Assembly: GCA_025928645.1 (NCBI GenBank)
Contig: JAICJD010000013.1
Coordinates: 1-38,704 of the forward strand
Source: Gemmatimonadales bacterium
GTDB lineage: Bacteria > Gemmatimonadota > Gemmatimonadetes > Gemmatimonadales > GWC2-71-9
Length of the DNA stretch: 38,704 nucleotides
Direction of reading: 5' to 3'
Shown here: positions 2,370 through 28,752 of the stretch, piece by piece
Numbering within the stretch: the first letter of the stretch is position 1
Layout: every line of letters starts with the position of its first letter
Notes under the pieces: generated by a model
Told to the model about the DNA's origin: nothing
Databases searched by the model: none
The model's input: the letters and a program-made list of their open reading frames with translations, nothing else
Position numbers and translations under genes: made by a program

Positions 2370-3908
2370 ATGCGGGAAGAATCTGGAGCCAGGGCGACCC
2401 GCCGGGAGTGGATCGGCCTGGCCGTTATCGCGCTTCCCTGCATGCTCTACTCGATGGACCTCACGGTCTTCGACCTGGCCGTGCCCCGGCTGAGCGCAGA
2501 CCTCCGGCCGACGGGGACCGAACTGCTCTGGATTCTGGACATCTACGGGTTTCTGGTCGCGGGCTCGCTGATCACGATGGGCACCCTGGGCGACCGGATC
2601 GGCCGCCGCAAGCTGCTGCTCATCGGTGCCGGCACCTTCGGGGCGGCCTCCATCCTGGCGGCGTTTTCCACCAGCGTGCCGATGCTCATCGCCGCGCGCG
2701 CCCTGCTCGGGATCGCCGGGGCCACGCTCGCGCCGTCCACCCTGTCCCTGATCCGCAGCATGTTCCGCGACGCCGAGCAGCGCACGGTCGCGATCGGGGT
2801 CTGGGTCACCAGCTATTCGGTGGGCGCCGCCATCGGGCCGCTCTGCGGCGGCATAGTGCTGGAGCACTTCCGCTGGGGCGCGGTGTTCCTTCTCGGCGTG
2901 CCGGTGATGCTGCTGTTGCTGGTGACCGGGCCGGTCCTGCTGCCCGAGTACCGGGACGACGAGGCGGGGCGGCTCGACCTCACGAGCGCGGCCCAGTCGC
3001 TCGTGGCGGTGCTGCTGGCGATCTACGGGCTCAAGCGCATGGCAGAGTACGGACCGAGCGCCCTGGCCCTGGCGACCATCGCCCTGGGCGCCGTGGTCGG
3101 CGCGGCCTTCGTCCGCCGGCAGCGGACCCTGCGGGATCCGCTGATCGATCTCGCTTTGTTCCGTGCCCCGGCGTTCAGCGTGGCGCTCGCCACCTACGCG
3201 GTCGGGACCTTCGTCGGGTTCGCGATGTACCTGTTCCTCGCCCAGTACCTGCAGCTCGTGCTCGGCCTTTCACCGCTCCGAGCGGGGCTCGCCACCGTGC
3301 CGTCGATGCTGATCTTCATCGCGGGCTCCGCGCTCGTGCCGCGGCTCGCCCGGCGAATCCGGCCGGCCTCCGCGATCGCCGGCGGTCTGGCCGTGTCCGC
3401 CGCCGGCTTCGCCGTGCTCGGCGGGGCCGTCGCGCCGGGGCTCGCGTGGCTGGTCGCCGGCTCGGTCATCTACTCCGTGGGGCTCACACCCGTGGTGATC
3501 CTGGCGACCGACCTCATCGTCGGCAGCGCGCCCGTCGAGCGCGCCGGCGCGGCGGCCGCGATCTCGGAGACGAGCTCGGAGCTGGGCGGCTCGCTCGGCA
3601 TCGCGCTGCTCGGCAGCGTCGCCACGCTCGTCTATCGGCGCGCGATGGCCGAGTGGATGCCGGCGGGTGTTCCCCCGGAGATCGGCAGGGCGGCCCGCGG
3701 AACGCTGGGCGGGGCGATCGAGGTCGCGAAGGGGCTGGCGCCGCTGGAGGGAAGGGAGCTGGTCGAAGCGGCGCGCGCAGCGTTCACCCAGGCGTTTCAG
3801 GTGACGGCGCTCGTGTGTGCGGCGCTGGCGCTGGTGGCCGCGGCGGGGACGGTGCTGGTGCTCAGGGAGCGCGGGGCGCGGGCGGAGGCCGCAGTGCCGG
3901 TGGGGTGA
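2370..3908 (+). CDS. MFS drug exporter, DHA2 (14-helix) family
   Basis: A 512-residue inner-membrane proton-driven efflux transporter. About 14 hydrophobic helices are visible. The loop 2-3 motif appears as GDRIGRRKLLL (about 68-78), the helix 1 acidic motif as MDLTVFDLAVPRL (about 24-36), and the proline/glycine-rich antiporter motif C region near SYSVGAAIGPLCGG (about 144-157). Overall it resembles SmvA/QacA-type multidrug exporters; substrates are often quaternary ammonium compounds or dyes, but none can be named here. I chose ATG 2370 because the frame upstream of it (from 2247) encodes a Ser/Arg-rich tail atypical for MFS. It is divergent from the MOSC gene across a 205-base gap, which would hold both promoters. 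No adjacent TetR-type regulator is seen. Confidence 0.88.
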   Translation: MREESGARATRREWIGLAVIALPCMLYSMDLTVFDLAVPRLSADLRPTGTELLWILDIYGFLVAGSLITMGTLGDRIGRRKLLLIGAGTFGAASILAAFSTSVPMLIAARALLGIAGATLAPSTLSLIRSMFRDAEQRTVAIGVWVTSYSVGAAIGPLCGGIVLEHFRWGAVFLLGVPVMLLLLVTGPVLLPEYRDDEAGRLDLTSAAQSLVAVLLAIYGLKRMAEYGPSALALATIALGAVVGAAFVRRQRTLRDPLIDLALFRAPAFSVALATYAVGTFVGFAMYLFLAQYLQLVLGLSPLRAGLATVPSMLIFIAGSALVPRLARRIRPASAIAGGLAVSAAGFAVLGGAVAPGLAWLVAGSVIYSVGLTPVVILATDLIVGSAPVERAGAAAAISETSSELGGSLGIALLGSVATLVYRRAMAEWMPAGVPPEIGRAARGTLGGAIEVAKGLAPLEGRELVEAARAAFTQAFQVTALVCAALALVAAAGTVLVLRERGARAEAAVPVG

Positions 3909-4086: not shown

Positions 4087-7410
<3,324 letters not shown>

Positions 7411-11385: not shown

Positions 11386-11429
11386 CCGTTGCGTCGAGTT
11401 CTGTCGGTGGAGTTCTTGGTCCGCGACGG

Positions 11430-11769
11430 TTCACCACGGAACCACGGAAAACACGGACAACGGCCACGGAAAACAGCCTTTGGTCAACGGCACACCGGTG
11501 GGGTTCCGTCGCTAGTTGGAAAAGCGAACCACGGAGACACGGAGGCGGCCACGGAGAACAGCAGGTGGTCAACAGCACGCCAGCGGGGCCTCACTTTCCT
11601 CAACGACGCTGGTGTGCTGTCACCCCAAGCTTTCTCCGTGGCTCTCCTCCGTGTCTTCCGTGCCTCCGTGGTGAATGCTTTTCCTTCGGACCCCGAACCC
11701 CACCGGTGTGCCGTTCCCAAGAGTTGTTTCCGTGGCCGTTGTCCGTGTTTTCCGTGGTTCCGTGGTGAA
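11430..11769. repeat. 340-bp nested inverted repeat built from CCACGGA-rich units
   Basis: Outer arms 11430-11472 and 11727-11769 are perfectly complementary over 43 bases. A second arm pair, 11486-11506 with 11695-11715, is perfect over 21 bases. Inner arms 11523-11565 and about 11620-11690 pair imperfectly. The centre pair 11573-11585 with 11607-11619 matches 12 of 13 around a 21-base loop. Each half holds two direct copies of one unit (CCACGGA repeats, then CGGCCACGGA, then AACAGC, GGTCAAC and a CACCGG/GGGG end), so the element is four related units, two per strand. The whole stretch 11386-11863 has no credible gene; its open frames simply translate the repeat. Confidence 0.92.
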
Positions 11770-11863: not shown

Positions 11864-12646
11864 TTGACAGCAGCCACGGCTTGCGCCGCCTGCGGCCGGC
11901 GCTCGAGCGGCCGCTATTGTCCGACCTGCGGCGCGCCGATGGGCGCCGCGGCGTGCCGCGGCTGCGAAGCCGAGGTCCCCCCCGGCGTCCGATTCTGCAC
12001 GTCATGCGGGCTGCCCGTCGGGGTGCCGCCCTCCGGCGCCGATCGGACGCCGTGGATCATCGCCGGCGCGGCGCTGGTCGCGCTGCTCGGCGCGCTCCTG
12101 GTCATGCTGGCGCGCGGGTCGGCCGCACCGGCGGTGACGGCGGAGCTGCCCCAGGCCGCCGAGAGCGACGCCGCGCCGGCGCCGGACATCAGCGCGATGT
12201 CGCCCCGCGAGCGGTTCGACCGGCTGTACAACAGGGTGATGGGCGCGGCGGAGACCGGCGACGAGACCACGGTGACCCGGTTCACGCCCATGGCGCTGGC
12301 CGCGTACGCGCAGCTCGACTCGGTCGACGCCGACGCGCGTTACCACGCGGCCCTGCTCGAGATCCACACCGGCGACGTCACCGGTCCCGCCGCCCTGGCC
12401 GACACGATTCTGGCGCGCGAGCCCGGACACCTGTTCGGCTACGTCATCCAGGGCACCGTGGCCCGCTGGCGCCGGGACGACGCCGCGCTCGCCCGGGCGT
12501 ACGCCGACTTTCTGGCGCACTACGACGCCGAGCTCGCCGCCGGCCGCCCCGAGTACGCCGAGCACCGGCCGGCGCTCGAGCAGTTCCACCGGCAGGCGCT
12601 GGACGCGAAGCCGGGCGCGCCGAGTCCCGGCGCGCCGGGTACTTGA
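11864..12646 (+). CDS. double zinc-ribbon, single-pass membrane protein with helical C-terminal domain
   Basis: A 260-residue protein starting at a TTG (no in-frame ATG is available upstream). Two zinc ribbons come first: C7, C10, C19, C22 and C31, C34, C45, C48. A membrane helix follows at about 64-86 (WIIAGAALVALLGALLVML), then an Ala/Pro linker and a helical region (about 108-245) with a TPR-like pattern of acidic and aromatic helices. The zinc ribbons should lie in the cytoplasm and the helical part in the periplasm, which would resemble the TPR domain of CcmI. It immediately precedes ccmE and likely shares its transcript. A role in cytochrome c maturation (apocytochrome handling or assembly) is inference from position only. 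Confidence 0.75.
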   Translation: MTAATACAACGRRSSGRYCPTCGAPMGAAACRGCEAEVPPGVRFCTSCGLPVGVPPSGADRTPWIIAGAALVALLGALLVMLARGSAAPAVTAELPQAAESDAAPAPDISAMSPRERFDRLYNRVMGAAETGDETTVTRFTPMALAAYAQLDSVDADARYHAALLEIHTGDVTGPAALADTILAREPGHLFGYVIQGTVARWRRDDAALARAYADFLAHYDAELAAGRPEYAEHRPALEQFHRQALDAKPGAPSPGAPGT

Positions 12647-19508: not shown

Positions 19509-21209
19509 CTACCACTCCATCAGCTCCAGGCGCCGGGCGCTCAGCCGGAGCGGCATCAGCGTCGCCGCGGTGCAGATGGCCACGACGGCGGCGCCCGCGG
19601 CGAGCAGCTGCGGCGTGGCCTCGAGCCGCTGGCCGTGCTGCCAGGCCCGGAGCTGCGCCGCGACCGGCAGCGCCTCGATCATGATGATCACCGCGAGCAG
19701 GCACAGGCTCGCCATCATGTACACCACGCCCCCGTAGCTGGTGGGAATCTGCGCCGCGTTCTCGGTACCGAACTGGGGATAGAACACCCCGAAGGTGAGC
19801 GCGAGCGCGCTCACGGCGGTCGTGTACAGCACGATGGTCATCAGGCTCGCGGCCATCATGAACGGGCTCACCGCCAGCAGCGCGTTGGTGAGCGCCGTAA
19901 TCGCCACCGCGAGCACGAGCAGCGGGATCGTCCCCATCCAGTACTTGCTCCACAGGATGGCGCGCGGGTCGAGGGGGCTCGAGCGGAGCAGCCACATCTG
20001 GCGCCCCTCGAGCGAGACGCCGGGGAAGATGAACCGCGCCGCCACCGCCGACAGGACGAACCCCGCCAGGCCGAGGTTGAGGAAGGAGATCATCGTCACC
20101 AGCGCGAACGGGATCCGCTCGCCAGTGTGGATCGGCAGCGACTTGATGTTGAAGATGTAGATCGCCACCAGCACCACCAGCAGGATGAGCTGGCTCCACT
20201 GGGTGTTGTCGCGGAAGAACAGCCGGAGGTCCTTGAACAGGAACTCGCGCTTCTGCGGCGGCAGCCAGGCGAGGAAAGTCGCCGCGGGCCCACGCAGCGG
20301 GCGGCGCAGCTTGCGCGACGCCCCCTCCTGCGCCTTCGAGTACCCGTGATGGAACAGCCGCCGATGCACCGCCGCGCCGAGCCCCACGCCGAGCAGGCCC
20401 GCGCCCCAGAGCTTGGCGATGGGCCGCGGATCGGCGATCCGGGTGAGCCAGTTCATCACCATCTCGGCCGACCACTCGCTCGGAAGCCACGGGCTGGTCG
20501 GGGCGCGCAGCACCTTGAGGTAGTCGAGAAAGCTGCGGAAGCCCTCGGGGCGCGCGAGCTGCTCGGGGCGGATGAACCGGAACAGCAGCACCAGCACCGC
20601 GACCGCCCCCAGGCCGACCAGCCCGAGCAGCTCGCGCGTGCGGCGGGCGGGGAACACGTTGACCAGGACCACGGTGAAAACCGTGCCCACGACCGCCGGC
20701 AGCACGAGGTACGGCACGATCGCGGCGACCGCCACCAGCGGGAACAGGACGCCGCCGTGGAACACCGTCCCGTACGCGGTCAGGATCGGCAGGGCGAGCA
20801 GGCCGACCATCCACGACGAGTGGACCACCGTCTCGCCGAGCTTGGCGAGGTAGAGCCGGAGCCAGCCGATCGGCGCCGCGACCAGCAGGTCGAGGTCCTT
20901 GGCGAGGAAGAACGTGCTGAGCGCGGTGATGACGTTGGAGAGGAGCAGGATGGACAGGAACGCGAGCAGGATGACGCTGAGCATCTTGCCCGCGAGCGGT
21001 GTCCCCAGGTCCGGCACCTGGCGGATATAGGACAGCACCCGGTAGGCGATGCCGAACACCGCGGTCCAGAACCCGACGCCGATGAGGCCGAGCACCACGA
21101 ACTTGGCCGGCGACCCGCTGCGCTCGTGGCGCAGCCGCACCAGCACGCCCCGCCACTTGGGCGTGAGCACGGTCCAGAGACTCGGCTGGGCCCGGGCGGG
21201 CGCGGTCAC
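19509..21209 (-). CDS. ABC-2 type exporter permease
   Basis: A 566-residue membrane protein with about 12-14 hydrophobic segments, partner of the ATPase encoded upstream. A GTG start overlaps the ATPase stop (GTGA); the frame further upstream only translates the ATPase gene out of frame. Large soluble loops are seen around 225-300 and 335-350, the latter with [19 protein letters not shown] just ahead of the second membrane half, an arrangement seen in double-length ABC-2 permeases of the ABC_export/DUF type. The substrate is unknown. Confidence 0.85.
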
Positions 21210-28677: not shown

Positions 28678-28752
28678 GGAGTCACCCTGAGCGAAGCGAA
28701 AGGGGGGCATGCCTCGGCTCATGCCCCCTTTCGCTTCGCTCAGGGTGACTCC
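28678..28752. repeat. long palindrome (33-34-base arms, 8-base loop), family A
   Basis: Left arm 28678-28711 and right arm 28720-28752 are complementary except for one extra G on the left. The sequence is nearly identical to the element at 3988-4061. It lies between the peptidase stop and the promoter of the Psp-like operon and could act as a hairpin terminator insulating the two. Confidence 0.92.

Follow-up and report, generated by a model that had tools for sequence, protein, structure and literature searches.

The window, by which we mean the whole analysed stretch of 38,704 nucleotides (contig JAICJD010000013.1 of a Gemmatimonadales bacterium), carries a nested palindrome of 340 bases at positions 11430-11769. 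The palindrome is located 44 nt past the stop codon of an FGGY-family kinase gene, with a zinc-ribbon gene and then ccmE beyond it. The double-zinc-ribbon gene (window 11864-12646), which stands between the element and ccmE, is either an extra gene of this lineage or one that was lost elsewhere.

Structure of the palindrome

The window copy consists of two complete layers and the remnant of a third. In layer 1, the left outer arm (11430..11472, plus strand), which is of the TTCACCACGGAACCACGGAAAACACGGACAACGGCCACGGAAA type, is complementary at 43/43 positions to the right outer arm (11727..11769, minus strand); once extended, the outer arms match at 49/57 positions, and the pair 11427-11483/11716-11772 is recorded as 57 nt at 89%. 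The second arm pair of this layer, AACGGCACACCGGTGGGGTTC on the left (11486..11506, plus strand), is complementary at 21/21 positions to its right partner (11695..11715, minus strand). Between the layers lie a left spacer of type A (11507..11527, plus strand) and a right spacer of type B (11676..11694, minus strand), which do not match each other. The inner layer 2 has a left arm of 16 nt, CCACGGAGACACGGA (11528..11543, plus strand), that is 94% complementary to the right arm (11657..11672, minus strand). The innermost stem is formed by CAGCACGCCAGCG (11573..11585, plus strand) and its partner (11607..11619, minus strand), complementary at 12/13 positions and paired in the DNA fold, around a loop at 11586-11606. 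Outside layer 1, the outer-shell remnant GGTGGAGTTCTTGGTCCGCGACGG (11406..11429, plus strand) represents the consensus GGGTTCxxGGTCCxxGACAG that flanks other copies.

An earlier, sequence-only reading of the window had described the palindrome at the same coordinates, with outer arms identical over 43 bases, a second pair over 21 and a centre pair over 12 of 13. All of these values were reproduced, and the palindrome is confirmed as genuine. The repeated units that it reported in each arm are also present: there are seven CACGGA units on the left side and eight on the right, and a direct repeat of 43 nt has halves that are 81% alike. The DNA fold of the element has an energy of -154.5 kcal/mol, compared with -68.0 +/- 4.6 for 100 shuffled sequences (z -19), none of which folded as well. 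Among all exact 16-mers of the window with a reverse complement at most 450 nt downstream, 34/51 lie inside this element.

Other inverted repeats occur in the window. A second long hairpin, AGTCACCCTGAGCGAAGCGAAAGGGGGCATG...CATGCCCCCTTTCGCTTCGCTCAGGGTGACT, is found at 28678-28752, after a DPP IV/S9 peptidase gene; CCTGAGCGAAGCGAAGGG is presumably another repeat scattered through environmental genomes. A short perfect inverted repeat with arms of 16-17 nt, about 70 nt apart, was picked up by the exact 16-mer scan at 20551-20638.

Copies in the source genome

The source genome is a 3.89-Mb assembly of 294 contigs that is 97% complete and has breaks in these repeats. The outer arm TTCACCACGGAACCACGGA was found in it at 61 + 53 sites (at most two mismatches) against 0 in the control, and a BLAST search with the window element gave 98 matches. 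From a first look at 89 candidate loci, 40 were scored, and the stretches around those 40, the window among them, yielded 31 complete elements of 178-367 nt, the window copy included, with the ends TTCACC/GGTGAA. Pairwise identity among 26 aligned copies is about 97% in the outer arms, whereas flanks, spacers and core reach 52-61%; conservation ends abruptly at TTCACC and GGTGAA. From the outside in, a shell comprises CCACGGA-type repeats, GGTCAACGGCACACCGG, and GGGTTC with a variable spacer, after which comes another CCACGGA shell. An extra outer shell, often incomplete and reading GGGGTTCxxGGTCCxxGACAG, is present in many copies. Two-sided changes across the copies were seen in 4/54 predicted pairs, a weak covariation that is due to the near-constancy of the outer arms. 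The earlier description of a gene-less, multi-copy and probably mobile element is upheld, and the repeated insertion that it suggested fits the nested shells.

The spacers on the two sides of an element never match. Five spacer types were set by eye ahead of counting; after 4/31 elements were dropped (shorter than 235 nt, or L022), 20 of the 27 left had both spacers typed, and the same type stood on both sides in 0/20, compared with a permutation mean of 4.2 (P 0.0066). A fresh inverted duplication would not produce spacers that differ between the sides. The never-matching halves may have a biological cause, the instability of long perfect palindromes, or may stem from an assembly filter: exactly 141 nt are common to two contig ends, pointing to a k-mer assembler unable to cross long perfect palindromes.

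Six loci (L009, L010, L011, L012, L013 and L015) have pairs of elements separated by 1.3-3.5 kb that hold ordinary genes, and our impression is that the elements are packed more closely than even spacing would suggest. The idea that close pairs form cassettes was rejected at three of these loci (L009, L012 and L013), where the genes between look by eye like ordinary chromosomal ones. At L012, GGTGCTGAGG, to the left of the first element (3227-3539), is the complement of CCTCAGCACC, to the right of the second (4902-5248), as if recombination between copies had opened one palindrome around 1.4 kb.

Placement and insertion sites

The copies are intergenic. With genes called by a codon-usage script, and with 5/31 elements excluded that had no called gene on one side, the flanking genes of 26 elements are convergent in 12 cases, tandem in 12 and divergent in 2, compared with 10, 44 and 14 for the element-free gaps longer than 40 nt in the same stretches. 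Convergent genes are therefore enriched around the elements (12/26 vs 10/68; P 0.0024, convergent vs rest).

The sequence-only reading had proposed comparing copies for target-site duplications and empty sites. No duplication of 2-9 nt was found at the TTCACC/GGTGAA boundary in 30 elements (0/30), and at the orthologous site of the window the palindrome is absent, by eye, in 9/9 congeners, seven of which have the kinase followed directly by ccmE. The flanks just beyond TTCACC are complementary within loci at 331/600 positions, vs 264 +/- 19 between loci; instead of insertion into a hairpin, this could mean that the outer shell is longer than drawn. The corresponding cross-phylum test gave 425 vs 353 +/- 16, in a count that used the nearest rather than the outermost right arm, a register fault, and included one multi-copy Planctomycetota genome; we place no reliance on this count.

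Relatives in other genomes

The long element was found in its own genome only, among 61 genomes (its own and 60 relatives); ten others match over short stretches, and the short matches examined were for the most part hairpins with one layer, of the TTCACCACGGAGGCACGGAG kind. In GTDB species contigs, a scan for ACCACGGAGNCACGGAGN{0,3}CACGGAG listed at least 118 stretches from many phyla, in keeping with the earlier remark that CACGGAG-type sequence is scattered through environmental bacteria. The taxa include Acidobacteria, Planctomycetota, Verrucomicrobia, Lentisphaerae, Chloroflexi, Nitrospiria and Myxococcales, as well as Geobacter and its relatives, Spirochaetes, Bacteroidetes, one cyanobacterium and others. 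When translated, the CACGGAG repeats give HGDTEDTE-type frames, which are widespread in databases as spurious protein entries. The Planctomycetota isolate OFTM393 has many CACGGAG hairpins (L087, L089, L135, L139 and L146), several with a genome-specific outer arm, TGACATCCTGCTCGCCGA, which may represent another burst, independent of the first and with a shell of its own.

Arms around GxxExxY genes

In the at least 118 listed stretches, seven arm pairs lie 400-900 nt apart, and six of the seven enclose a GxxExxY ORF; 24 forward arms have no partner. HMM matches in the same stretches amount to 10 domain hits in 9 GxxExxY genes, the broken gene at L072 being counted once. Arms are present on both sides within 300 nt for 8/9 of these genes, vs 6/3000 random intervals. 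One (L130) is a gene remnant enclosed by arms 234 nt apart, and at another (L095) two nested shells surround the gene.

The genes enclosed by arms score above the cut-off for both PF13366 (PDDEXK_3) and TIGR04256 in 8/8 cases, and D67, E77 and K79 are invariant in 7/7 aligned proteins. Membership in the PD-(D/E)XK family, together with the invariant D and ExK, suggests a nuclease. A structure model of the protein is poor (pLDDT 66), a Foldseek search with it returned nothing at E <= 0.001, and a search of PDB sequences with the GxxExxY profile gave no match. The name GxxExxY occurs in 2 of 5.39 million papers, and PMC8934634, in the part cited here, merely names the domain. Among titles and abstract openings on the arm sequence, palindromic repeats, GxxExxY, intervening sequences (IVS) and four-helix-bundle repeats, we recognised no description of these elements.

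PF13366 is present in 75/249 genomes drawn from the window's phylum. At the best 30 GxxExxY loci of the phylum, mostly one per genome, CACRGA arms stand on both sides in 8/30 and on at least one side in 12/30, and are missing from one or both sides in 22/30; three of the loci (L187, L194 and L204) are one orthologous site, and two of these are within the eight. Arms of this motif on both sides were found at 0/30 four-helix-bundle loci, 0/29 Y1 transposase loci (one of 30, L269, was dropped for too short a flank) and 0/582 background intervals. A strict motif-free test for inverted arms (score >= 14) was positive at 14/30 GxxExxY, 24/30 four-helix-bundle and 15/29 Y1 loci. As background, other places within these loci were positive in 1/378 (GxxExxY) and 0/441 (four-helix-bundle) cases, comparisons between loci in 28/870 and 11/870, and intervals taken at random from the window in 3/600. 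A lenient flank scoring was dropped, as random window intervals scored as high (226/400 at >= 20). Inverted arms often frame all three gene families, and the CACRGA motif goes with GxxExxY. This association of arms and gene is a new link, measured here, for which we found no describing paper. At a locus from the same family of organisms (L189), the arms around the GxxExxY gene are very like the outer arm of the window and in nearly the same order.

Within the genus, one orthologous site holds a GxxExxY element in three genomes (G002, G004 and G008) and lacks it in four (the source genome, G003, G005 and G006), and the flanks of filled and empty sites differ strongly. This rests on seven loci read out of nine matches, a partial one (L247) and a weak second one (L248) being left out; G007 and G009 gave no match. 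PF13366 has no match in the source genome, which has the most copies of all. A hidden GxxExxY copy is possible, as the assembly has a completeness of 97% and is broken at these repeats. A scan of viral sequences listed 82 stretches with such hairpins; of the 80 loci covered, the GxxExxY gene was found in 0/80, where about eight were expected at the rate of genome contigs.

The four-helix-bundle genes of the phylum (L210-L239) are framed by inverted arms in the 24/30 cases given above, with tandem motifs of 7-10 bases that vary between elements (AGTCAGG, GTATCAGG, GACGGTA, GGATTAG and others). The source genome itself has such genes (TIGR02436) at three loci: L177 (G000:C203:8377-11691), where inverted arms of the GACGGTCA type stand on both sides of the gene, and L178 and L179, which are identical over 141 bases at contig ends, as a sign of a repeated four-helix-bundle gene.

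Alternative explanations

A chance local rearrangement, that is, an inverted duplication at one site, would account for the self-symmetry of the window element by itself and is hardly conceivable: it is refuted by the copies (114 arm sites in the genome, control 0), and the relatives across phyla and the differing spacers of the two sides also speak against it. The sequence-only reading had named the lack of a second copy and of covariation as signs of such an event; many copies were found, and covariation is weak (4/54 pairs). A selected function at gene ends, as a strong bidirectional terminator, an RNA-stability hairpin or a protein-binding array, would agree with the convergent-gene bias (12/26 vs 10/68), the very stable stem and the conservation of the arms above the rest. 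We consider it unlikely, given that the orthologous site in nine congeners is without a copy, that there is hardly any covariation and the sequence itself is conserved, and that purifying selection, acting on insertions in front of genes, gives the convergent placement equally well. The structured RNA suggested earlier likewise gained no positive support: no Rfam family reached its gathering score with the window element, and two miRNA models scored 35.3 and 32.1 bits, far from their cut-offs of 168 and 137.

Two kinds of known mobile element remain to be weighed. A MITE whose parent is an ordinary DDE insertion sequence, moved by a transposase acting in trans on TTCACCACGGA ends, would have conserved inverted ends and a variable interior, as observed; as 30/30 elements lack a target-site duplication where TTCACC marks the boundary, we regard it as improbable, PF01797 being the one transposase family searched in the source genome. 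A REP/REPIN-type element, mobilised through single-stranded hairpins by a transposase of the Y1 kind (RAYT or TIRYT), would be palindromic, intergenic and multi-copy like the window element. Y1 genes flanked by terminal inverted repeats (TIRYTs), with repeat families of those repeats, are described in Acidobacteria and others in the part of PMC3733652 cited here; Y1 genes of the window's phylum often have inverted arms (15/29 loci, score >= 14), and such genes are present in the congeners G003 and G007. Against this, the Y1_Tnp search (PF01797) found 0 matches in the source genome and matched 5/14 control genomes, CACRGA arms occur at 0/29 Y1 loci, the elements are 178-367 nt long, compared with 20-40 bp for REPs in the same part of PMC3733652, and the ends TTCACC/GGTGAA have no GTAG or CGTC tag. 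Such an origin is improbable overall, and RAYT/REP was rejected for the source genome on account of the missing Y1_Tnp gene and the arms at 0/29 Y1 loci. What stands of the MITE or REP-like mobility proposed earlier is a gene-less, multi-copy, probably mobile element; a strict REP with Y1_Tnp/RAYT and a MITE with target-site duplications (0/30) are not supported.

Proposed origin and mechanism

We propose that the window element is a non-autonomous, interspersed mobile palindrome, and a nested derivative, devoid of a gene, of hairpin elements of the GxxExxY type, with a probability of about 0.5. It is called a derivative rather than a full member because it has no gene and the source genome has no PF13366. 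The hairpin copies and the likeness of their arms to the ends of GxxExxY elements point to a little-known kind of mobile DNA.

In this proposal, the relatives elsewhere would be short elements in which inverted arms of roughly 8-base CACGGAG-type repeats, typically ending in TTCACC...GGTGAA, enclose one GxxExxY gene, and loss of the gene would leave a bare hairpin. New copies would tend to land at the tip (centre) of existing hairpins, their own kind included, so that palindromes would come to be nested like Russian dolls. The arms would be extruded into a hairpin or cruciform, near whose tip a GxxExxY-type nuclease would cut, and repair would copy in another element; copying-in by repair would leave no target-site duplication. 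We infer that GxxExxY moves the arms, that bare hairpins arise through gene loss, and every step of cutting and repair; cutting at hairpin tips with copying-in would explain both the nesting and the missing duplications. The strongest counter-points are that the GxxExxY gene is missing from this assembly and from the viral set.

A wider proposal, which we offer tentatively and think somewhat unlikely, is that an undescribed class of mobile elements, spread across phyla and homing into DNA hairpin tips, has GxxExxY proteins as its enzymes, and that S23/IVP genes are a parallel class. The proteins would cut the tips of cruciforms or hairpins and thereby get themselves copied in, with gene-less relatives piling up as nested palindromes. 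If this is true, S23/IVP four-helix-bundle genes with other arm motifs of 7-9 bases would use the same kind of address. GxxExxY is a common and essentially unstudied protein family, and CACGGAG hairpins litter environmental genomes; joining the hairpins and the protein gives one testable mobile-element hypothesis. Long palindromes are unstable in bacteria, and the hypothesis would help to account for the growth there of palindromes to lengths of hundreds of bases.

Comparison with known systems

REP/REPIN elements with RAYT or TIRYT, as described in the cited part of PMC3733652, are palindromic, intergenic, multi-copy and gene-less like the window element, which differs in being far longer, in having no tag tetranucleotide and in belonging to a genome without a Y1_Tnp gene. 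A MITE has the same non-autonomous look, conserved inverted ends and variable core, and terminal inverted repeats are indeed present (43/43 in the window copy, about 97% among 26 copies); the window element differs by the absence of a target-site duplication and of a known parent insertion sequence (PF01797 alone searched), and by its nested layers. The IVS of 23S rRNA with an S23/IVP four-helix-bundle ORF, in the part of PMC4990558 cited here, is bounded by a hairpin, holds one small ORF and sits in an existing helix, and the four-helix-bundle genes of the window's phylum are also framed by inverted arms (24/30). Window-type elements go with another gene family and lie outside rRNA, the window copy being located between the FGGY-kinase and zinc-ribbon genes, and CACRGA occurs at 0/30 four-helix-bundle loci; the IVS serves as a functional analogy only. 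With the GxxExxY hairpin elements, the window element has the inverted CACGGAG-type arms in common; the window copy is unlike them in having no gene and two full shells, and nesting is also found around the gene, at L095.
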